Part shown: one piece after another, positions 10,302 through 30,566 of the stretch | How the letters are laid out: every line of letters begins with the position of its first letter | How positions within the stretch are numbered: the stretch's first letter is position 1 | Virus record (IMG/VR): IMGVR_UViG_3300048686_000449 | Coordinates: 1-64,000 of that record | DNA length: 64,000 bases | Source: a virus | Reading direction: 5' to 3' (one strand) | The notes under the pieces: generated by a model | Told to the model about the DNA's origin: nothing | The model's database searches: none | Seen by the model: the letters and a program-made list of their open reading frames with translations, nothing else | Position numbers and translations under genes: made by a program

Positions 10302-10468
10302 ACATTCGTCTCCTCTTGTTCCCAAAAAGGAACCACATGAGATATATCCTGATCCTGTTCATCCGAGGTATCATCGTTGTGCGGGGGGCGTTTCTTGTTG
10401 ATCGGGGTGGCATCGTCACGAAATTTCTGTTTTTGACGCATGGGTTCAAGACTGCGACTACTATACAT
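10298..10468 (-). CDS. small polar protein, 56 aa
   Basis: The start at 10468 has SD AAGGAG inside the end of the glycosyltransferase gene. The sequence is polar and charged, rich in Asp, Gln and Glu, probably disordered (HNDDTSDEQDQDISHVV). It is coupled by overlap to both neighbours. No function can be proposed. Confidence 0.5.
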   Translation of the reverse strand: MYSSRSLEPMRQKQKFRDDATPINKKRPPHNDDTSDEQDQDISHVVPFWEQEETNV

Positions 10469-11213
10469 GGGAATGATTCTCCTTCTGACGCCAGGGAAAG
10501 GACTGATTAAATCGCTGGGCATATTCGGCATTTCCAGCGAGGAAAAAGGGCAACTGGACCGATCCAGCATTGCCACCGAGACGATAATTGACGGTATACT
10601 CACCCGTACACGCAAAGCGCGGAGCAATCTTTCGTAGATGTGAAAAGAACACACGATCTGCACCCCATTGTCCATACCAGGCAGGACCGACGGTGATTGC
10701 TAATGATCGTGGCACACAATAACAGGAGGTATCAATGTGCTGATAGATGTGTGCGGGGTCGGGGGAATAGGCATTCCACTTACCCAAGGATTCACAGTTA
10801 TCACAACAGAGCCAGGTACCTTTTACATCAACGATATTGCGCAGACTATAGGCCCACTGCGCCTGAGTTCGATGTAGAGTAGACAGCAGTGATGCGCAGT
10901 GATGTGGCTGGAGTGTGTTGTCGGAATCTAAGTATATGATGAAATCTGTGTTACAGAGGGCGGGAACTGAGCTATACACACGATGCCCATAGAATCCTTT
11001 GCCGACATTTTCCTCTAAAAAAATAATGCGAAGATGTGTTTGTGATGGTAAGGACTCAACAATATCCATCACTTCCTGATGATATTGTGCCCCATCAATC
11101 ACAAGATAATGAACCACGGGAATGGTTTGTTCCATGACCGAACGAAGACATGCGGCGAGATGTGGACCACCAATTGTGGGGGTGATAATACCTATAGTGG
11201 ATTCAGTCATCAT
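10461..11213 (-). CDS. GT2-type glycosyltransferase
   Basis: About 250 residues in a single GT-A domain. It opens with IGIITPTIGGPHLAACLRSV, as GT2 enzymes do, and has the metal/nucleotide-sugar site LDSDN around residue 98, with acceptor-side aromatic residues after it. It should transfer a sugar from an NDP-sugar to an unknown acceptor (host envelope, virion protein or modified DNA). It stands alone in the early region, away from the glycan cluster at 50-55 kb, and has its own promoter; the start codon lies only 9 bases after the -10 box. Confidence 0.8.
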   Translation of the reverse strand: MMTESTIGIITPTIGGPHLAACLRSVMEQTIPVVHYLVIDGAQYHQEVMDIVESLPSQTHLRIIFLEENVGKGFYGHRVYSSVPALCNTDFIIYLDSDNTLQPHHCASLLSTLHRTQAQWAYSLRNIVDVKGTWLCCDNCESLGKWNAYSPDPAHIYQHIDTSCYCVPRSLAITVGPAWYGQWGADRVFFSHLRKIAPRFACTGEYTVNYRLGGNAGSVQLPFFLAGNAEYAQRFNQSFPWRQKENHSHV

Positions 11214-12555: not shown

Positions 12556-14556
12556 TCATTTACTCGTCGCCACATAGACGCCCGTCCAATTTGAAGGGCA
12601 TCCTGCAGATAATCGCTGTGTCATGATGGTATAATACTCTTTCAGTGTAGGATTTGATTGCGATAATCCATCAGCTAAGTGAAGAGCTTTTTTCCATTCT
12701 CCCGAATAATACAAGTCTAAAAATTGTTGATGGACTGTATCATGTTCAGCTACGGTGTAAATATGAACACCCTGCTTCTTACCTTTCACAGCTAAACAAT
12801 CAAGTTCTGTTACTGAGATTCGCGATTTCACTATCTCAGCAGTCTGTGGCCCAAGAATCAACTTGACCCCATATGATTTGCTCTGACCTTCCAATCGTGA
12901 GGCGAGATTGACCGCATCACCTAGACAGGTATAATCAAATCGTTGAGTGCTGCCCATGTTCCCGACAATCACAGATCCTGTATTGATGCCGATACCCATG
13001 CCAAATGGTGGAACGCCTTCCGCAGCAATCTCCTCATTGAAACGATCCAAATCATGAAGCATTGTTTGGGCTGTCAGAACGGCATGATACGCATGATCCG
13101 CATCATTCAACGGTGCATTCCAGAAGGCCATCTGGGCATCTCCGATGTACTTATCTAATGTTCCCTGTTGAACGAGAATAGTTTCAGTCATGGCTGTCAT
13201 ATACCGATTCATAATCTGCGTCAGCCCTTCAACATTCTCTCCATAATGTTCTGAGATCGTGGTGAATCCGCGTACATCAGTAAACATAATACTCAGTTCT
13301 CGTCGTTCACCACCCAAACGTAACAGCGCAGGATTTTGTTGGAGCTTCTCCACCATTGCAGGTGACAGATAAGTTCCAAATTGTTTTTTGATTTGTTGCT
13401 TTTGCAGAAACTCAGAGAGGAACTTGACGCCATACGCATGTAACGCAATCAGAATAAATCCTGCATCCAACATCGTAACATCAAGCAGCCATTTCTCTTT
13501 CGTATAGAACCAATAGGTGAATGCTGGCGCACTCAAAATCAGAAGAACTGTAAACCCGAGTCCCACATAGGTCCAGCGACTGAGCGCAATAATTAGAAGA
13601 CCCCCCAGACACAGCAATGATAATTCAAGTCCCATGGCCCAATCGGGTCGTTGAATGGAGATGCCATTGATCAGAGTACCAATGACCGCTGCTTGGACAT
13701 CGTGCGGCCACACTGATCCAAGACTGGTCGGCACAGGATTGGCCACGCCTGTCGCAGTGACACCCAGAATGACAATGGCACCGTTGAGATCGGGAATGGG
13801 ATCAAGAAAAGAGTGTGTTTGAGCCGTCTGTGTCCAATCAATCCACACTCGTCCGAGTTCATCAGTCGCAATCGGTCCAAATTGAGGAATACGCAACTTC
13901 TCAATCCCGCCCGAGAATAACTTGACCTGAATCGTTGTATCATTAGCTAAGAGACGAAGAGTTTCCAGTGGCACCGAAGGATACAACACGCCCTGCGCAC
14001 TCGCGACTAATGGCATTCGACGAACCACACCATCAAGTTCGGGTAATGTATGAATCGTACCGACTCCAGCGGCAGCCGTTTCTAACAGAGGAATATTTGA
14101 GAGCATACCTGGATAAGTGATGAGTTGTGTGAGATATTCGGGATTGAGCACTACGCTTCCAGGGTAACGTGGTACATTCTTTTGTTCTTTGGCTGGCGCA
14201 TTCACTAAGAGCACGGGATAACGATCCATCGTTTTTGCAAATAATTCATCACCATGATGTGGATCTGGGTCGGGCATCAAAATGGTGCTGATAACAAGTC
14301 CAGCACCGTGTGCATAGAGTTGTTGAATATACTCTGCATACACTGAGCGATTTAATGGATATTGCCCATAGCGAGTAATTGTCTGATCATCGATTTGAAT
14401 TGTATGAATCTGCGTGGCGACAGCAGGACCCGATGTCACCAATGTATCAAAGTATCGTAATCTGACTGATTCTAAAAATGATGGATCAGATTCACGAACA
14501 GCAACCATTAAACATAATGTGAGAATTGCCCACCAGGGTGTTAACCAACGAATCAT
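12556..14556 (-). CDS. CHASE2-domain class III adenylate cyclase
   Basis: 666 residues. An N-terminal membrane anchor (about 4-20) precedes a periplasmic CHASE2 sensor domain (about 25-300), three transmembrane helices (about 308-377), a short linker and a class III cyclase domain (about 415-590). Both metal-binding aspartates are present (D427 in FTDVRGF, D473 in KYIGDAQMAFW), as are the purine-selecting Lys469, a Thr at the paired position (T543) and the transition-state Asn550/Arg554 (GDAVNLASRLEG). The Lys/Thr pair is that of class IIIb adenylate cyclases, so cAMP is the expected product. It is the last gene of the curli operon, one base after curlin B. FecR and CHASE2 proteins are neighbours in many bacteria; here they lie in a phage. 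Confidence 0.92.
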   Translation of the reverse strand: MIRWLTPWWAILTLCLMVAVRESDPSFLESVRLRYFDTLVTSGPAVATQIHTIQIDDQTITRYGQYPLNRSVYAEYIQQLYAHGAGLVISTILMPDPDPHHGDELFAKTMDRYPVLLVNAPAKEQKNVPRYPGSVVLNPEYLTQLITYPGMLSNIPLLETAAAGVGTIHTLPELDGVVRRMPLVASAQGVLYPSVPLETLRLLANDTTIQVKLFSGGIEKLRIPQFGPIATDELGRVWIDWTQTAQTHSFLDPIPDLNGAIVILGVTATGVANPVPTSLGSVWPHDVQAAVIGTLINGISIQRPDWAMGLELSLLCLGGLLIIALSRWTYVGLGFTVLLILSAPAFTYWFYTKEKWLLDVTMLDAGFILIALHAYGVKFLSEFLQKQQIKKQFGTYLSPAMVEKLQQNPALLRLGGERRELSIMFTDVRGFTTISEHYGENVEGLTQIMNRYMTAMTETILVQQGTLDKYIGDAQMAFWNAPLNDADHAYHAVLTAQTMLHDLDRFNEEIAAEGVPPFGMGIGINTGSVIVGNMGSTQRFDYTCLGDAVNLASRLEGQSKSYGVKLILGPQTAEIVKSRISVTELDCLAVKGKKQGVHIYTVAEHDTVHQQFLDLYYSGEWKKALHLADGLSQSNPTLKEYYTIMTQRLSAGCPSNWTGVYVATSK

Positions 14557-14557
14557 A

Positions 14558-15232
14558 TTAGTGTTGAGTCACACTCGCCGAACAACCCGCAGGATTCAAA
14601 CAATTTTGTGTTAACGAATAGGATTTATTCGTTGATCCACTCTGCGAGAGATTCAGTGAAGATGACCCCCCTCCATTTGTAAGTTCAATGATAGCTGTAT
14701 GCGATCCGCTCCCCGTTTGTGAGGAGGTCACGCTATTACCATTACCATTGAGTGTGACTGATAATGAATGATTCCCCGCATCTTGTTGGACCGCAGAGAT
14801 CATATTTGTATTACCATTAATGTTGAGAGTTTGAATTTTTGTCTTGGCATCTTTTTGCAACGCTGATACTTGATTGGCATTTCCTAAAATTGTTGTATTG
14901 AGAATATGCCCCGAATCAACATCTCCCATATTAAATTGTGTGACATTGAGAATATTATCCACCCCATTTATATAAATGTTTGATGTGTGACCACCACTGT
15001 CTAACGCACCACCTTGGGTGACGTTAACACTATTTCCTTGATTATATAACTGAACCGACGCAGTTGACGAAGGAGTTTCTTGTGTTATGGTGATTATATT
15101 GTTATCGCCGACTTGATCCACATACACTGAATTCTCTGCGAGTGCAGGAGGATTAACTATAAAAAGAATCGTCAAGATCCAGTTAGTTAGACTGACGAAT
15201 CGTAATTGTCGTGCTGCCGCCCTGATTAACAC
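14558..15232 (-). CDS. curlin-repeat secreted protein B
   Basis: A GTG at 15232, with GGAG about ten bases upstream, gives a clean signal peptide (basic start, hydrophobic core LTNWILTILFIV, cleavage after PPALA). The mature part (about 190 residues) consists of curlin-like repeats with the N-x-V/I-x-x-x-Q-x-G rhythm (DNNIITITQ, NSVNVTQGG, NSVTSSQTG). A Cys pair near the C-terminus (NCLNPAGC) is unusual for curlins. A longer ATG frame starts at 15322 inside the FecR gene. It is predicted to be exported through CsgG and form or nucleate amyloid-like fibres. Confidence 0.8.
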   Translation of the reverse strand: MLIRAAARQLRFVSLTNWILTILFIVNPPALAENSVYVDQVGDNNIITITQETPSSTASVQLYNQGNSVNVTQGGALDSGGHTSNIYINGVDNILNVTQFNMGDVDSGHILNTTILGNANQVSALQKDAKTKIQTLNINGNTNMISAVQQDAGNHSLSVTLNGNGNSVTSSQTGSGSHTAIIELTNGGGSSSLNLSQSGSTNKSYSLTQNCLNPAGCSASVTQH

Positions 15233-16316
15233 GGTTTGTAATCTCCACGCTACCTTGGATTTGAGTGATGGTACTATTTTGATTTGTAGGAGTCTGAATA
15301 CATTGAATATTAGACCCATCATTTCGGCATAATTCTACACTTGGTTCATCAATCGCCACAACAACTCCAGAAGATTTCACATAATCTGGTAAGAGTCCAC
15401 CTTTGGTACGAGCTAATGCATCCGCTTTTGCTGCGAGTTGTTCATTGATTTGATCAAGAATATTTTGTAAAAAGTCTTGATCTAATGAATTCTGTTCCAG
15501 CTTATTGACATACATTTTTTGAATTTCTTTATTTGATTGATCGAATGCATTCACGAGTCCTGTGGAAGCCAAAAAGTCAATATCTAATGCACCTTTGTTG
15601 AGATTCAATCGTGCGTCTTTTTTATCCTGTAGTTCCTGTGGTGGAGCAAATAGAATCATATTATGAATCGCATCTTCGCTGAGATTGAGAATGACGGGTG
15701 ATTTGGGTTTTGTTTCTTTAGTCTCCACACGTGTGGCTTGAAATGCTTGATTCATTACAACAATACCTTCCGATGTCTCTACAGAGATTTCACCCACCTT
15801 ACAATCACGTTCAATTGAGATCCAGCCACGTGGACAACTGGGTAACAAGATAATCGTGCTGCGTCCCAATTCATCAACTGATGCAGTAAAATCCGTCCCG
15901 CGCACACCGATTGTTGCTGTGGGAGTCGTAATCGCTACAGCTTGAGGATTGCGTTTCGCAATTGCTCCAGAGGCATATCGTACTGTTCCAAGTGCCACTT
16001 TCATCGCTAATTTTCCACCAGTAGATGATTTTGGATCATAGACAAACTCATCAATGACTAATCGTGAATTATCAGTTACCTGTACTTTAGTTTGATCGTC
16101 AAAGACAATTCCGATTTTTCCTTGCGCAGTACGAATCGCATCCATCATCTCAACTCCACTACCCTTCTTCCCCTCTAAAAATTGGGTTGAGCGTTTAATT
16201 TGCGCGGGTTGATTGATTTGTTCTGTAATCGTTCCGATGGACGCACTGACCATCACTGGAACAGTCAGTGCGATCCACAGATTAATTATGAGAATTGATA
16301 CTAAGTGTATTCCCAT
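15183..16316 (-). CDS. FecR-domain secreted protein
   Basis: 377 residues from ATG 16316 (M12 of the longest frame), with a hydrophobic export signal ending near VMVSAS. The first half is a FecR domain: GKIGIVFDDQTKVQVTDNS, LAMKVALGTVRYASG, ITTPTATIGVRGTDF. A Cys-containing insertion and a helical region (about 210-300) follow; the last 40 residues have a curlin-like N/Q/T/I pattern (STITQIQGSVEITN). In bacteria FecR domains act as periplasmic signal transducers or surface-protein modules. It overlaps both curlin genes, so the three are translationally linked. Confidence 0.85.
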   Translation of the reverse strand: MGIHLVSILIINLWIALTVPVMVSASIGTITEQINQPAQIKRSTQFLEGKKGSGVEMMDAIRTAQGKIGIVFDDQTKVQVTDNSRLVIDEFVYDPKSSTGGKLAMKVALGTVRYASGAIAKRNPQAVAITTPTATIGVRGTDFTASVDELGRSTIILLPSCPRGWISIERDCKVGEISVETSEGIVVMNQAFQATRVETKETKPKSPVILNLSEDAIHNMILFAPPQELQDKKDARLNLNKGALDIDFLASTGLVNAFDQSNKEIQKMYVNKLEQNSLDQDFLQNILDQINEQLAAKADALARTKGGLLPDYVKSSGVVVAIDEPSVELCRNDGSNIQCIQTPTNQNSTITQIQGSVEITNRVNQGGSTTITIRQSN

Positions 16317-17055
16317 TTCCAACCGATGTAATAGCGACATGGGTATCAATAGTGCCGCTTTGTGTAATGGTTGCGCTGTTACTAGATCCCGTCACACTTA
16401 ATTCAGTCGTATGACCTGTCGTTCCTGCGGTGCCGCTTTGCGTTAAAGAGACGGTATTACTCGCACCCACTGTCGTGATGGTACTGGTACCTTTATTACT
16501 TGTGAGATTAAGTGTTGCGCTGTTACTCGCACCACCCGTCATTGATGTAGTATTAGTAATATTCGTTCCTGCAATAGTGGCTGAAAGTGTTTGATTATTA
16601 CCACCCGTTTGTGTAGCAGTTAACGAGTTACTGGTACCAGTCATTGTCACGTTAGTTGAAGCATAGTTTCCTCCTTGCGTGATGGCTACTGTATTCTCAT
16701 CAGAGATAGAGGATCCATCGTTGTTCATATTAATGGTAGCTGAACCGTTACTTCCTGTAACTTCATATGTCATTGAGTTTGAATCACCCAACCCACCATT
16801 AATACCTAAATTCAGTTGGTTTCCTGTACCCGTTTGGGTCACAGAAACTGTTGTATCTGATCCATAAATTTTAGCTTTGGTATCACTAGCGGCTCCAATT
16901 CCCTTGACTGTATTTGTTGAACCATTCTGTTCAATCGTAATCGTCGAGGTCGATCCGATTTGATCAATATAAACTCCATTATCTCCAGCCCACGCTGTCA
17001 CTCCAATCATACATGATAACAGCAGCGTGAAGATAAAATGACTGAAACGTTTCAT
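16282..17055 (-). CDS. curlin-repeat secreted protein A
   Basis: 257 residues with a signal peptide (FTLLLSCMIGVTAWA, cleavage before GDNGVYIDQ). The mature protein is built from Asn/Thr/Ser/Gly-rich repeats carrying the curlin signature N-x-[VA]-x-[IL]-x-Q-x-G (NTVAITQGG, NTVSLTQSG, NSATITQSG). CsgA and CsgB of E. coli have five repeats of this kind; here they are more numerous and looser. Its start overlaps the csgG stop by ATGA. Secretion through CsgG and assembly into extracellular fibres are inferred from repeats and context. Confidence 0.85.
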   Translation of the reverse strand: MKRFSHFIFTLLLSCMIGVTAWAGDNGVYIDQIGSTSTITIEQNGSTNTVKGIGAASDTKAKIYGSDTTVSVTQTGTGNQLNLGINGGLGDSNSMTYEVTGSNGSATINMNNDGSSISDENTVAITQGGNYASTNVTMTGTSNSLTATQTGGNNQTLSATIAGTNITNTTSMTGGASNSATLNLTSNKGTSTITTVGASNTVSLTQSGTAGTTGHTTELSVTGSSNSATITQSGTIDTHVAITSVGNGNTLSINSHN

Positions 17056-17879
17056 TGATCCTCCTGTGGGGTAATTGAATCAGGGGGATTCCCCCAAATT
17101 CCCTTTCGTGTTCCTTCCTTAATAAGTTCTAATACAGCAGCTTCAATAGTATATTTGACGGCAAATGTACCAGGCTCATTGACAGTCAATCCGATTTCTC
17201 CTTCAAATGCTTTTGTTCCTTGATCAAAAAACTTTAATGCAGTCGCATGATCGGCCACTGAGAGTAAGTTTTTTTGTACATTTACTGATGCTAACACTTT
17301 CCCTGTTGACACTGATACAACACGCAAACTGACGGTCACGACATCTTCTGAAAATTGTGTAGATCCGCCGACCCCTAAGTATCTCGCCCCAATCCCACCA
17401 CTTTTGGTCGTTGTATCATAACCAATGACTCCACCTTCAATTAAAATTCCAGCAAATAATAATGGTTGAAGTGGTTTTGAACTAGTCCCTTCATAGGCAT
17501 CGCGCATCTGACGAATCAATTGACGTTCTCGTGTCAATCCATCGACGCCAATACGTTCTAATACTGTGAACCATTCACCTCTTCCTACATCTTGCAGAGC
17601 TTTAATTAAAAAGACTTCAGCTCCTTGGGTCAATGCAGTGCTAAATGATGCCATGTTATTGGAGGGTCGTCGTTGTCCCGTTTTATCTAAAAATGAATAC
17701 ACCGCCACCGTAATTGGTTTGCCCATTGGTGGACCAGTGATACTATCAAACTCGCGTTGTAATAAATTTTTCGTCACTTCTGGTTTTTGGGGTAATTGAT
17801 CGACCAAGACTGCGCATCCTGTCATCAACCAGAGATGCAGGATAATCATCAGCGTGAGTATAATTGAGAGAATATTCAT
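17052..17879 (-). CDS. csgG: CsgG-type curli secretion pore lipoprotein
   Basis: 275 residues. The lipobox is LMTGC with the lipidated Cys22. The region VAVYSFLDKTGQRRP through SFSTALTQGA corresponds to the CsgG constriction segment; by eye the pore Phe is kept while the neighbouring Asn is Ser. GGVIGYDTTTKSGGIGARYLG and VSLRVVSVSTGKVLASV follow the family closely. CsgG forms a nonameric outer-membrane channel for unfolded curli subunits. It directly follows csgF (TAATG overlap) and precedes curlin A. Its length matches the family. Confidence 0.92.
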   Translation of the reverse strand: MNILSIILTLMIILHLWLMTGCAVLVDQLPQKPEVTKNLLQREFDSITGPPMGKPITVAVYSFLDKTGQRRPSNNMASFSTALTQGAEVFLIKALQDVGRGEWFTVLERIGVDGLTRERQLIRQMRDAYEGTSSKPLQPLLFAGILIEGGVIGYDTTTKSGGIGARYLGVGGSTQFSEDVVTVSLRVVSVSTGKVLASVNVQKNLLSVADHATALKFFDQGTKAFEGEIGLTVNEPGTFAVKYTIEAAVLELIKEGTRKGIWGNPPDSITPQEDQ

Positions 17880-18331
17880 TAGAATTGAAAACTTCCCAAT
17901 GGAATCGTGACCACCGTGCGAGTCCCATTGGTGTCAATCGTAGTAAGTTGAATATTTGTGCCATCTTTAATCCACGAAATCGTATTTCCCTCAAACACCA
18001 AGGTGCCTTGATTTGTCCCACCATTGGCAAACATGGCTGTAGCCAAATTTTGGGAGATTTGTGCGTAAATACGACTTTCCAGGTTATTGAGAAACTTGGA
18101 GAGATTGGTATTGTTGGATTCAGCTTTGGCTTTATCCAAGGCTGCTTGAATCTCAGCTTTGAGTTTATCACGACGAGTAGCTTCAAGATTCTCAATCGTC
18201 AGGGTATGACTGGAGTACCCTATACCATTGAATGCAGGACTAAGAAACTTGAAATCTTCAATAGGAGCAGCAAAAGAGAAATAAGGAAAGAGTAGCAAGA
18301 GAAGTATAACAATAGTGCGGGGGGATAACAT
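17879..18331 (-). CDS. csgF: CsgF-like curli assembly factor
   Basis: 150 residues with a signal peptide cleaved after FSFAA. The start of the mature chain, DFKFLSPAFNGIGYSSHTL, matches the CsgF N-terminus that plugs into the CsgG pore. A helical middle (about 45-95) and a beta C-terminus ending in VVTIPLGSFQF complete the family pattern. CsgF couples subunit export to nucleation at the cell surface. SD AAGGAG. It opens the secretion part of the operon, and no CsgE or CsgC gene is visible in the window. Confidence 0.85.
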   Translation of the reverse strand: MLSPRTIVILLLLLFPYFSFAAPIEDFKFLSPAFNGIGYSSHTLTIENLEATRRDKLKAEIQAALDKAKAESNNTNLSKFLNNLESRIYAQISQNLATAMFANGGTNQGTLVFEGNTISWIKDGTNIQLTTIDTNGTRTVVTIPLGSFQF

Positions 18332-18377: not shown

Positions 18378-18629
18378 TTATTGCTCATTGTGTTTTTGTT
18401 TTTTCAATTCTAAAACAACATTGACTTTTTGATGAAGACGAATCAAATCATTATCAAGCATTCTAACTCGGTCAATCAACCCAACTAATGTCTTTTTCGT
18501 TTCATTAAGTACGGGTTCAATAGTTTCGGTCACCCAAGTCCAGACATACCAAATCATATAGAACATCCCACCTGCTGCCACGATGGGGAATCCATATTTA
18601 TTGATAAGTTCGACTGGATTAGTTTCCAT
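18378..18629 (-). CDS. small membrane/coiled-coil protein, 83 aa
   Basis: One transmembrane helix (about residues 12-33, GFPIVAAGGMFYMIWYVWTW) is followed by a cytoplasmic amphipathic helix with a heptad pattern (LIDRVRMLDNDLIRLHQKV). It is a paralogue of the upstream 92-aa protein, sharing GFPI and the helix layout. It lies between the late promoter and csgF and could be a holin-like or scaffold protein; neither is proven. Confidence 0.65.
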   Translation of the reverse strand: METNPVELINKYGFPIVAAGGMFYMIWYVWTWVTETIEPVLNETKKTLVGLIDRVRMLDNDLIRLHQKVNVVLELKKQKHNEQ

Positions 18630-18907
18630 TAGTCTTTCCGAGCATCTTCTTTTCCATCAGATCGCGATAAACGATCTAGATCTGGTTGTAAGCGTAACGC
18701 ATGGGAAATTAATGTATCAATTCGAACAATATCAGAGTTCATCGTTTTGACGCGGTTATCAAGTGCCATAATGATGCCTCGCATACTCTCAATCGTTTGC
18801 TGAACGCCTTCAAGAAGAATCTTGATTGTCAAGAAAACAAAGTATCCAGCCCCACATGCAGCAGCAATTGGGAATCCAACTTCCAGTAATGTCAGAAACA
18901 GTTCCAT
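18629..18907 (-). CDS. small membrane/coiled-coil protein, 92 aa
   Basis: Same layout as its downstream paralogue: a hydrophobic N-terminal segment (VGFPIAAACGAGYFVFLTI) followed by an amphipathic helix (MALDNRVKTMNSDIVRIDTL) and a charged tail. The ATG begins only five bases after the late promoter octamer, so its mRNA would be leaderless. It is the first gene of the curli operon. Confidence 0.65.
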   Translation of the reverse strand: MELFLTLLEVGFPIAAACGAGYFVFLTIKILLEGVQQTIESMRGIIMALDNRVKTMNSDIVRIDTLISHALRLQPDLDRLSRSDGKEDARKD

Positions 18908-18912
18908 AAGAG

Positions 18913-18920
18913 TATTTATA
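18913..18920 (-). promoter_or_regulatory. T4-type late promoter (TATAAATA) of the curli operon
   Basis: An exact TATAAATA followed by CTCTT on the minus strand, close to the extended T4 late consensus (TATAAATACTATT). No sigma70-like -35 is seen. Genes from 18907 to 12556 follow without a terminator. Confidence 0.65.
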
Positions 18921-18938
18921 GTCTACTAGAACTACCAA

Positions 18939-20237: not shown

Positions 20238-20855
20238 TCAAACCTCACAATGCGTTTCTTTCCACTTCAAAGACTTTTCTAATTCTTTATCAAAAATCAT
20301 CAGGAACCGATGTTTTCGAGTACGATCTCTCCATTCACCTTCCAATCCCTTGACAGAACCACGTGAATGCTTGGTGCCATCCGCATAGTAGAAATCTTTC
20401 TTAGGATCGGTGAGTCCATAATATTTGAAATTACATGCACGATAAATCGTTCCAGTATGGCGAGAACTATCCGCATAACTCAGAATCACTCGAACATCCG
20501 ATTCACTACGAAATTTACGAATACAACGACTCACGAACCATGAGGTGATATTGTATTCCGTCTGCTGTAATTCTGGATGAACACAGAGACGTGAGAGTTC
20601 ATAGAGTCCTTCTTGTTGATCTCGTCGAAGACCAAAAGCCCCGACCGCTATTTCTGGCACGGGAATTTTTGTAAAGATACAGACTCCTAGACATTCTCCC
20701 ACGTGTAGAATATCAGTGACGGCATTTCGATATAAGCCATATGAGTAGGGACTAAACTTGAAATCTTTCGATTCATCTTTGAGGTAATGGAAGGTGGTCA
20801 GTAGACCCTTGACCTCAGACTTTTTCACATTATCAATAAAGAACTCAGACTTCAT
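20238..20855 (-). CDS. Mom-like DNA modification protein (GNAT fold)
   Basis: 205 residues. The order of motifs follows the Mom family: an N-terminal FHYLK, then GLYELSRLCVHPEL, a helix NITSWFVSRCIRKF, VILSYADSSRHTGTIYRACN and YYGLTDPK. Mom of phage Mu uses acetyl-CoA to turn adenine into a carbamoylmethyl form that blocks restriction. A related role here would protect phage DNA from host restriction enzymes. Assignment rests on motif order, not on proven chemistry; another GNAT activity is possible. Confidence 0.72.
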   Translation of the reverse strand: MKSEFFIDNVKKSEVKGLLTTFHYLKDESKDFKFSPYSYGLYRNAVTDILHVGECLGVCIFTKIPVPEIAVGAFGLRRDQQEGLYELSRLCVHPELQQTEYNITSWFVSRCIRKFRSESDVRVILSYADSSRHTGTIYRACNFKYYGLTDPKKDFYYADGTKHSRGSVKGLEGEWRDRTRKHRFLMIFDKELEKSLKWKETHCEV

Positions 20856-24322: not shown

Positions 24323-24369
24323 GCATTATTTTTGAGGGGAAAGATGAAGAAAATCAAGAGGTTAGAGTG

Positions 24370-24443
24370 GCGAATTCGCGAGGATTTGAACCTCGACCCT
24401 TAGTTTTGGAGACTAAGATGCTACCATTACACCACGAACTCGC
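24370..24443 (-). tRNA. tRNA-Trp (CCA)
   Basis: Cloverleaf on the minus strand: acceptor GCGAGTT/AATTCGC, anticodon arm TTAGT-CTCCAAA-ACTAA with anticodon CCA, T-arm with GGTTCAAATCC. The 3' CCA is not encoded. It adjoins the plus-strand HNH cassette. Confidence 0.9.
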
Positions 24444-24462
24444 AAAGAGAAAACATAAAATG

Positions 24463-24470
24463 ACTAAATA
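24463..24470 (+). promoter_or_regulatory. putative late promoter of HNH cassette (ACTAAATA)
   Basis: Plus-strand ACTAAATA followed by GATGTGGGT, at the same position in the cassette as the exact TATAAATA at 55633-55640. Confidence 0.5.
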
Positions 24471-24473
24471 GAT

Positions 24474-24504
24474 GTGGGTCGCGATGTTATCAGCATCCAC
24501 CCAC
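24474..24504 (+). promoter_or_regulatory. conserved leader hairpin of homing endonuclease cassette
   Basis: GTGGGT pairs with ACCCAC and, inside, GATG with CATC; the loop differs from the copy at 55644-55674 while both stems are identical. It lies in the 5' leader between the late promoter and the start codon and may control translation. Confidence 0.6.
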
Positions 24505-24537
24505 TCTAACACTATAGATTTAGGAGGAGTGCCAGCT

Positions 24538-24597
24538 ATGTCTATTTATTCTACTAAAACTTATTCATTCGCATATCTCACGAGAGGTGGGATATGA
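24538..24597 (+). CDS. leader peptide coupled to HNH endonuclease, 19 aa
   Basis: After SD AGGAGG, the ORF MSIYSTKTYSFAYLTRGGI ends in TGA, which overlaps the HNH ATG. Its first four residues and FAYL resemble the N-terminus of the GIY-YIG protein at 55708 (MSIY, YAYL). It is probably a remnant start of a GIY-YIG gene replaced by HNH, now used for coupling. Confidence 0.5.
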   Translation: MSIYSTKTYSFAYLTRGGI

Positions 24598-25307
24598 ACT
24601 ACAAAAAAGTTTACTTCTCTTTGATTGAGAAACGAAAAACCACTCCAGTTTTGGGATATTCCGAATCTCACCATATCACACCAAGAAGTCTAGGAGGTTC
24701 AGACGCTCCAGATAACATCGTTGAATTGACGGCGAGGGAGCACTTCTTCGCTCATCTACTTCTCACAAAAATACACAAAAGAGGTCCGGCGAAATATAAG
24801 ATGGTCAGAGCTTTTATTATGATGCTTTGTGTTGCGGGTCAAAATCAACAGAGATATATCTCATCAAAAAGATATGACCAATTACGAAAACAATTTTCTA
24901 TTGCGCAATCATTATCACAATCAGGCGAAAGAAATTCTCAGTTCGGAACTTGTTGGGTCGTTCACGATCTATTCGGTCCAAAAAGAATAGAAAAATCCCT
25001 ATTCTGTGAATATGTAGAACAGGGATGGTATCTTGGAAGAACTTTCAATTATATACAAGAAAAGAAAACGTCAGTTCAGATAAAAGAAAGAAGAAAACAA
25101 AAAACTCTAAAAAAGTATCCCAATCTTGATGAGTGGTATCGCATATATGATGCGAAAGGATTTGAAGAATTTGTTAGAATTACTGGATACCCTCATTCAA
25201 AACCTAATTTGGTTACGTTATTCGCAAAATATGTTCCGTCTTTTGTCCCACAAAATAGAAAAAGAAGAGGTTGGCTGGCGGGGCAGGCTTCGATCCTGCG
25301 ACATTAG
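24594..25307 (+). CDS. HNH homing endonuclease (plus strand)
   Basis: 237 residues. The N-terminal nuclease core reads SHHITPRSLGGSDAPDNIV followed by ELTAREHFFAHLLL, the HNH/NHN-type motif common in free-standing phage endonucleases. The C-terminal part is basic with predicted DNA-binding helices. Its base composition (A-rich codons) differs from its neighbours, as expected for a mobile gene. It lies on the opposite strand between tRNA-Trp and tRNA-Asn, and its 3' end overlaps the tRNA-Asn gene. Confidence 0.88.
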   Translation: MNYKKVYFSLIEKRKTTPVLGYSESHHITPRSLGGSDAPDNIVELTAREHFFAHLLLTKIHKRGPAKYKMVRAFIMMLCVAGQNQQRYISSKRYDQLRKQFSIAQSLSQSGERNSQFGTCWVVHDLFGPKRIEKSLFCEYVEQGWYLGRTFNYIQEKKTSVQIKERRKQKTLKKYPNLDEWYRIYDAKGFEEFVRITGYPHSKPNLVTLFAKYVPSFVPQNRKRRGWLAGQASILRH

Positions 25308-25348
25308 GAGTAACAATCCTACGTTCGTACCATCTGAGCTACCCGACA
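25275..25348 (-). tRNA. tRNA-Asn (GTT), possibly degenerate
   Basis: Anticodon arm TAGGA-TTGTTAC-TCCTA gives anticodon GTT; T-arm GCAGG/CCTGC is intact. The acceptor has one mismatch (third pair T-C) and the D-stem another, and the 3' end overlaps the stop of the HNH gene on the other strand. It may be decaying. Confidence 0.65.
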
Positions 25349-25368
25349 TCAGCACATCTTATAATTGG

Positions 25369-25440
25369 TAGCGGGGGCTGGAATCGCACCAGCGACCTTT
25401 AGGTTATGAGCCTAACGAGCTACTCCTGCTCCACCCCGCT
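25369..25440 (-). tRNA. tRNA-Met (CAT), initiator-like
   Basis: Acceptor AGCGGGG/CCCCGCT, D-arm GAGC/GCTC, anticodon arm TTAGG-CTCATAA-CCTAA (anticodon CAT). The 5' half (GCGGGGTGGAGCAG) resembles bacterial initiator tRNA, but position 1 pairs with 72 and the anticodon stem lacks the three G-C pairs. Confidence 0.85.
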
Positions 25441-30491: not shown

Positions 30492-30566
30492 TGGAGCTGA
30501 CGATAGGACTTGAACCTACAACCTGAGCTTTACAAAAGCCCCGCTCCGCCATTGAGCTACGTCAGC
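30492..30566 (-). tRNA. tRNA-Thr (TGT), CCA encoded
   Basis: Acceptor GCTGACG/CGTCAGC, regular D and T arms, anticodon arm GGGCT-TTTGTAA-AGCTC (anticodon TGT), and a 3' CCA encoded in the genome. It lies between its promoter and the lipoprotein gene. Confidence 0.93.

Follow-up and report, generated by a model that had tools for sequence, protein, structure and literature searches.

A predicted CHASE2 adenylate cyclase at the end of a phage curli operon as a candidate output of an envelope relay

What use might a phage that encodes a curli-type secretion pore have for a membrane-bound adenylate cyclase with a sensor domain of its own? The gene in question lies in a stretch of 64,000 bases, referred to here as the window, which comprises bases 1-64000 of a 75,898-base IMG/VR virus record (IMGVR_UViG_3300048686_000449). 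The record encodes a DnaB-like helicase, a primase, a ribonucleotide reductase and a head protein, plus a T4-type RNase H detected by profile match. The source is a T4-like phage, and the cyclase gene was counted as phage-borne because it lies in a virus record with these genes. The GC content of the window (about 0.40-0.47) does not indicate a SAR11 host, and the phage probably infects a host outside SAR11.

The first-pass annotation had placed the cyclase at the end of a curli operon, and the Pfam matches agree: it is the last gene, after csgF, csgG, a curlin gene, a FecR gene and a second curlin gene. The unit begins with two small membrane ORFs and runs almost without gaps on the minus strand; the cyclase ATG starts one base past the stop codon of the preceding gene. 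Its features, from the promoter motif onward, are:

18913..18921, minus strand: exact T4-type late promoter motif CTATAAATA, 5 nt upstream of the first ORF's ATG
18629..18907, minus strand: small membrane and coiled-coil-like ORF, the first gene of the unit (match to PHROG 18771)
18378..18629, minus strand: small membrane and coiled-coil-like ORF, PHROG 18771, with a weak 18-residue holin-family match
17879..18331, minus strand: csgF, pore accessory protein (CsgF, 7.4e-12)
17052..17879, minus strand: csgG, outer-membrane secretion pore (CsgG, 4.9e-48)
16282..17055, minus strand: first curlin-repeat protein (Curlin_rpt, 2.9e-8, 6 stretches)
15183..16349, minus strand: exported FecR-domain protein (Pfam FecR, 9.2e-10), an ORF of 388 aa, with perhaps a downstream ATG as its real start
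14558..15190, minus strand: second curlin-repeat protein (Curlin_rpt, 5.7e-4; 20.2 bits, just below the Pfam cut-off of 20.7)
12556..14556, minus strand: CHASE2 adenylate cyclase gene, an intact ORF of 666 aa from ATG (Pfam CHASE2 and Guanylate_cyc)

The second curlin ORF is open from 15322, and its probable start was placed at the TTG at 15190, four bases into the end of the FecR gene, on the strength of a signal peptide and the gene junction. The two small ORFs (18378-18907) are paralogous; such a pair stands directly upstream of csgF in 87 of 165 relatives' loci, and in L009, L015 and L139 it is found directly past the cyclase on the opposite strand. A family 2 glycosyltransferase-like protein (10461-11213, minus strand, 5.2e-8) is encoded near the operon. 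The canonical bacterial curli operon includes the CsgE gate, whereas the phage-type operons searched do not: CsgE (PF10627, E 0.1) was absent from this phage's sequence (G000, a fragment), from Melnitz and HTVC008M and from the genome of Hyphomonas sp. TMED17, with a positive E. coli control. In the Podoviridae version of the cluster a histidine kinase gene precedes csgF, as described by Wittmers et al. (PMC9599517); none was found next to csgF in the window, where the two small membrane ORFs take that position.

The cyclase protein can be divided as follows, the membrane topology being predicted:

14488..14538, minus strand: first transmembrane helix (residues 7-23), a helix in the AlphaFold2 model with hydrophobic sequence
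13597..14520, minus strand: CHASE2 domain (residues 13-320), putatively periplasmic (Pfam, 1.5e-35)
13378..13638, minus strand: three more predicted membrane helices (residues 307-327, 329-354 and 360-393) in the AlphaFold2 model
12754..13299, minus strand: class III cyclase catalytic domain (residues 420-601), from Pfam, structure matches and residue conservation
12559..12738, minus strand: C-terminal helical tail (residues 607-666) ending in WTGVYVATSK, helical in the AlphaFold2 model, with W657 and G659 conserved

The proposal of a phage-encoded membrane cyclase with a CHASE2 sensor was sustained by the intact ORF, by the membrane helices of the AlphaFold2 model, whose topology is predicted, and by the CHASE2 match. 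For that domain an HMM check had been suggested, and Pfam matched it over residues 13-320 (E 1.5e-35; 123.5 bits against a cut-off of 26.3), its extracytoplasmic side being putative. In the model (46 sequences, mean pLDDT 90) CHASE2 is placed between the first (7-23) and the later (307-393) membrane helices, the last of which (360-393) continues into what would be a cytoplasmic signalling helix; all four helices and their orientation are predictions. Guanylate_cyc matched residues 420-601 (E 4.1e-19; 69.3 bits against a cut-off of 21.9), the cyclase fold spans residues 417-602, and PHROG 35576 was matched over its full length (E 2.4e-223). The model of the catalytic domain was matched by CyaB of Pseudomonas aeruginosa and by CyaC of Spirulina (3r5g, with Z 23.2 and an rmsd of 2.1 over 188 residues; 1wc1, with Z 22.9 and an rmsd of 1.7 over 185 residues). 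Both share its fold and its K/T substrate pair but, unlike the phage protein, have no CHASE2 sensor and are not phage-encoded. The closest viral model is the full-length protein A0A6J5RWB7 of an uncultured Caudovirales phage (TM-score 0.95, 45% identity). The nearest cellular sequences are alphaproteobacterial CHASE2 cyclases, and the order CHASE2, membrane helices, class III cyclase is common to the phage protein and the CyaD1/CyaD2/CyaK-type enzymes of S. meliloti; compared with the bacterial CHASE2 cyclases, only the phage protein is virus-borne and tied to curli genes. The profile scores, the dN/dS of 0.03-0.15 between related pairs and the mean pLDDT of 90 exclude a chance match. The tail forms three helices in the model (607-618, 621-634 and 636-650). 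ORFs of about 106-138 aa homologous to the tail only (33-42 bits) were found in L244, L245, L246 and L257 (~900 bases upstream of csgG) and at L275:9079-9495; by sequence, the tail looks as if it were an independent module.

All of the class IIIb catalytic residues listed in the first-pass annotation were found in the sequence, namely D427 and D473 for the metals, K469, T543, N550 and R554. In an alignment of 163 viral relatives, 161 of them with letters at the catalytic columns, both Asp, the Lys and the Arg are kept in 161/161. Three catalytic types were distinguished: D-K-D-T-N-R, to which the window belongs (81/161), D-K-D-D-S-R of Melnitz (78/161) and D-K-D-S-N-R of HTVC008M (2/161), the last of which also occurs in further pelagiphage-like sequences and in the Hyphomonas protein. 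A class IIIb cyclase that uses ATP is expected to pair Lys with Thr (or Asp/Ser), as K469 does here with T543; of the two residues the Lys is decisive and Thr alone is not (PMC4215837). The mycobacterial enzyme Ma1120, with Ala in place of the transition-state Asn, is active (PMC4215837), so the Ser in the Melnitz type was not taken as a sign of lost activity and, by this analogy, need not imply one. Judged by its residues, the protein of the window should be an inner-membrane adenylate cyclase of class III (IIIb-type) that is specific for ATP.

Phage cyclases with a sensor had been described as rare, and this part of the annotation did not hold: at least 596 loci in IMG/VR encode relatives of the cyclase, isolates carry the gene, and a cyclase in the cluster has been published (PMC9599517). 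We examined the best 80 of the at least 596 loci found with the window protein, plus 80 found with the Melnitz protein. Where the flank was long enough, csgF, csgG and FecR all lay near the cyclase in 44/45 window-type and 35/35 Melnitz-type loci; in 36 of the former and 33 of the latter the three genes preceded the cyclase and shared its strand. In 9/45 window-type loci the cyclase was off the same-strand position behind the operon, yet still in the neighbourhood. Of the csgG loci whose downstream flank reached 8 kb or more, 30/30 had FecR and 26/30 a full-length cyclase; for the four loci lacking a local cyclase, another part of the record encodes a CHASE2 protein (4/4). The cyclase is a near-constant partner of viral curli genes, even at loci where its transcription is separate. 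In both set and order, the six genes of the window (csgF, csgG, curlin, FecR, curlin, cyclase) recur in the isolates Melnitz and HTVC008M, which likewise have no CsgE; their cyclases are 35-36% identical to that of the window and differ from it in catalytic type (K-T-N in the window, K-D-S in Melnitz, K-S-N in HTVC008M). The cassette is common: it was found on hundreds of virus contigs, of which some exceed 300 kb, and in sequenced isolates with cultured hosts. A cyclase annotated to Acinetobacter phage MD-2021a (CAKLQH020000011.1) was set aside as a phage gene: it is surrounded by mfd, hscA and iscU, and the entry is likely a mislabelled host contig.

Parts of this cluster are in the literature. 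In the passages relevant here, csgF and csgG in pelagimyophages were first reported by Zaragoza-Solas et al. (2020; PMC7029224), where the cyclase is not named; Buchholz et al., the authors of Melnitz, proposed that the CsgG pore times lysis and mention neither cyclase nor FecR (PMC9004378); and Wittmers et al. (2022; PMC9599517) reported an adenylate cyclase in the type VIII secretion (curli) clusters of pelagiphages, which also include FecR. The gene order of those clusters is csgF, csgG, curlin and FecR, frequently followed by a second curlin gene and the cyclase, and the window agrees with it. The cyclase within phage curli clusters is thus already known from that paper. CHASE2 is not named in the passages of the three papers (PMC7029224, PMC9004378 and PMC9599517) drawn on here. 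Relative to those passages, the CHASE2 sensor, the PupR-like FecR partner, the three catalytic types and the swapping of catalytic halves are additions to the published accounts, as are the Hyphomonas operon, the scarcity of recognisable cAMP receptors in Pelagibacteraceae and their absence from 18 phage records.

Next, we compared the histories of the two halves of the cyclase. In the catalytic-half tree the D-S (Melnitz) type forms one clade with 100% support. The CHASE2 halves of these proteins are instead dispersed over their tree, where well-supported branches require at least 7 changes. A single CHASE2-half clade for the D-S group was rejected (AU p 3e-37, for a group picked by residues, with quick trees and long branches). 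An example is L142, whose CHASE2 half adjoins that of L084 and whose catalytic half is of the Melnitz type; L139, L140, L149, L275 and others are further cases of exchange when set against L136. The trees indicate that one catalytic half has been swapped repeatedly onto resident CHASE2 halves. Such exchange between phages offers a natural test of which of the two halves is under constraint.

A bacterial copy bears on where the operon came from. A 705-kb contig of Hyphomonas sp. TMED17 (L166:3999-10022) carries csgF, csgG, curlin, FecR and a CHASE2 cyclase amid ordinary bacterial genes, and the operon looks like part of a bacterial chromosome. In the CHASE2-half tree the phages and TMED17 stand apart from six bacterial sequences (99%); for CsgG, the tree joins TMED17 to the phages, apart from 26 bacterial sequences (99%). 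The TMED17 branch in the CsgG tree is long, and transfer between phage and bacterium may have run in either direction. Hyphomonadaceae and other bacterial curli operons were considered as donors and rejected, 26/26 examined being without FecR and cyclase. The TMED17 contig indicates that the block can move as one, as would be expected if the cyclase were inherited with the operon from an alphaproteobacterium in a module kept only for its pore. We regard this as very unlikely: the dN/dS of 0.03-0.15, the full conservation of the metal and ATP-specifying residues in 161 sequences, the persistence of the cyclase even apart from the operon and the repeated exchange of its catalytic half all point away from a mere passenger.

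The FecR protein was examined as a possible partner of the sensor. It begins with a signal peptide followed by the FecR domain, FecR being the sole Pfam family over its cut-off, and the domain model matches the cell-surface-signalling domain of PupR (6ovk; Z 15.3, rmsd 2.9 over 136 residues) and 4m0n (Z 14.3). The signalling-domain fold is thus common to FecR/PupR systems and to the protein of the operon. Those systems have an anti-sigma part, whereas neither a cytoplasmic anti-sigma domain nor a FecI-type sigma feature was found in the phage FecR protein by Pfam or in its sequence; its inner-membrane partner would be the cyclase and not a sigma regulator. The C-terminus is called curlin-like here because it has a conserved strand-turn-strand ending in Gln and resembling a curlin repeat; the strict motif Q-x-G-x-x-N occurs in only 4/107 of these C-termini, and Pfam Curlin_rpt gave no match. 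Structure searches with the C-terminal beta part (326-376) returned unrelated Ig domains with low Z only, and these were discarded. There are precedents for the pairing: in Campylobacterota, genes for CHASE2 cyclases cluster with one for a FecR outer-membrane protein (PMC9239204), and a CHASE2 histidine kinase is found with a FecR/LysM protein in Burkholderia (PMC5192318), so that by analogy the pairing appears to be independent of output type, be it cyclase or histidine kinase. In S. meliloti, CHASE2 cyclases respond via the outer-membrane barrel NsrA (PMC13001267), and plasmid-encoded CyaD1 deleted for CHASE2 makes cAMP constitutively (PMC5498481). Protein distances of the FecR domain and CHASE2 correlate at 0.55 over all phages (partial 0.34) and at 0.08 within the catalytic type of the window; given the last value, co-evolution in this type does not support a direct FecR-CHASE2 contact.

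The time of expression was addressed through promoter motifs. The motif CTATAAATA has a single exact match in the 64-kb window, at the head of the curli unit. With up to 1 mismatch it occurs 27 times against 13.4 expected, a count reached by 0/100 shuffles, and this excess fits a T4-like phage with late promoters. Among relatives, which are not independent of one another, TATAAATA precedes the homologous first ORF in 57/190, as compared with 4.6% of long ORFs. From the exact motif, the excess in the window and TATAAATA in the relatives, the operon is likely expressed late in infection. Counts of sigma-70 promoters and terminators around the operon match chance expectation, and the Rfam search gave only tRNAs and no riboswitch of the kind present in Melnitz.

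With moderate confidence, we propose that the cyclase forms the output of an envelope relay that a single late phage operon encodes and that runs from pore to FecR to CHASE2 to cAMP. Late in infection the phage would make an outer-membrane pore of CsgG and CsgF together with two secreted, curlin-like proteins. The exported FecR protein may dock on the pore or its cargo, perhaps via its curlin-like C-terminal strands; its fold is the one with which PupR-type cell-surface signalling senses what state outer-membrane proteins are in. Docked FecR would contact the periplasmic CHASE2 domain, the contact would switch the cytoplasmic cyclase dimer and change the cAMP level, and the cytoplasm would in this way receive a readout of the pore's state, which would time late infection or act as a checkpoint in it. 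Gene content and order, domains, active-site residues, purifying selection, near-obligate co-occurrence, the late-promoter motif and the fold matches were computed. We favoured the relay because of the complete active site under selection, the CyaB/CyaC fold, the co-occurrence, the PupR-like FecR, the CHASE2 precedents and the late promoter. The parts of the scheme that we infer are the membrane topology, the contacts of FecR with CHASE2 and with the pore, the direction in which regulation runs and what cAMP acts on.

Where the cAMP would act depends on its receptors. Pelagibacteraceae, the host family of the best-known relatives (HTVC008M-type), may not be that of this phage. A cNMP-binding domain was found in 9/147 of their genomes, many of which may be incomplete, and 3 of the 9 matches score as strongly as typical CRP-like proteins; class III cyclases exceed the cut-off in 2/147, one with a phage-type operon on its contig. 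None of 18 phage records, this one and those of 17 relatives, has a cNMP-binding domain. Pelagibacteraceae thus seem, from their genomes, to be without the usual cAMP receptor. CRP-like sites (TGTGAN6TCACA, up to 2 mismatches) show no excess in the window, with 41 against 48 expected by chance, and give no hint that CRP regulates the phage. The suggestion that the cyclase couples surface state to host cAMP therefore stands in part: a coupling of surface to cAMP is plausible, whereas a ready-made CRP-type host circuit cannot be assumed, given the 9/147 Pelagibacteraceae and none of the 18 phage records with the domain. For SAR11-type hosts a link to a cAMP circuit of the cell itself is doubtful.

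The cyclase may instead feed a host CRP/Clr-type regulon, with phage cAMP switching surface, biofilm or metabolism genes, which is the line of the first-pass annotation and of Wittmers et al. (PMC9599517). The host of this phage may have CRP, and the GC of about 0.40-0.47 carries no sign of SAR11; Wittmers et al. state that cAMP acts on csgD in E. coli-type curli systems, and the CHASE2 cyclases of S. meliloti drive the Clr regulon (PMC5498481, PMC13001267). The cassette, however, is kept in HTVC008M-type phages although only 9/147 Pelagibacteraceae (3 strong) have a cNMP-binding domain, and we consider a host regulon possible but unlikely. Alternatively, cAMP signaling may not be the point, and the enzyme may serve as an ATP drain, make a decoy nucleotide or address a non-CRP target of phage or host, for example in lysis timing or in countering nucleotide-based defence. 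No known receptor in phage records and few in Pelagibacteraceae (9/147), the late promoter motif, the small membrane ORFs at the head of the operon, one with the weak holin match, and the lysis timer proposed for the CsgG pore in the Melnitz paper (PMC9004378) are in line with this. A conserved periplasmic sensor half, on the other hand, argues for regulation rather than bulk consumption, and nothing points directly to any such target; we think this explanation improbable. The relay from pore to cAMP is itself weakened by the correlation of 0.08, the absence or scarcity of receptors, the lack of CRP-site excess, the predicted status of the helices and the 5-nt gap between motif and ATG, which at T4 spacing would give the first mRNA almost no leader.

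A more specific form of the relay may be considered, which we put forward as speculative and rather unlikely: a self-contained cAMP relay from outer membrane to cytoplasm would act as a late checkpoint on an unknown cAMP target in hosts with no CRP circuit, the catalytic half being exchanged and the sensor half resident as if selection for diversity acted on the output enzyme and not on the sensor, exerted for instance by host systems that degrade or sense nucleotides. A virus with its own sensor-gated cAMP synthase and secretion pore would bring an added signalling circuit rather than a single borrowed enzyme. The role of phage cAMP is a testable question because the cassette is common, isolates with cultured hosts are available and Pelagibacteraceae seemingly have no usual receptor; the sensor logic and the exchange of catalytic halves are the parts that deserve follow-up.

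Further genes were recorded elsewhere in the window. A Mom-family protein is encoded at 20238-20855 on the minus strand (PF25680, 1.3e-20), which suggests that the phage may hypermodify its DNA. Four tRNA genes (Trp, Asn, Met and Thr) lie at 24368-25440 and 30492-30566 on the minus strand.
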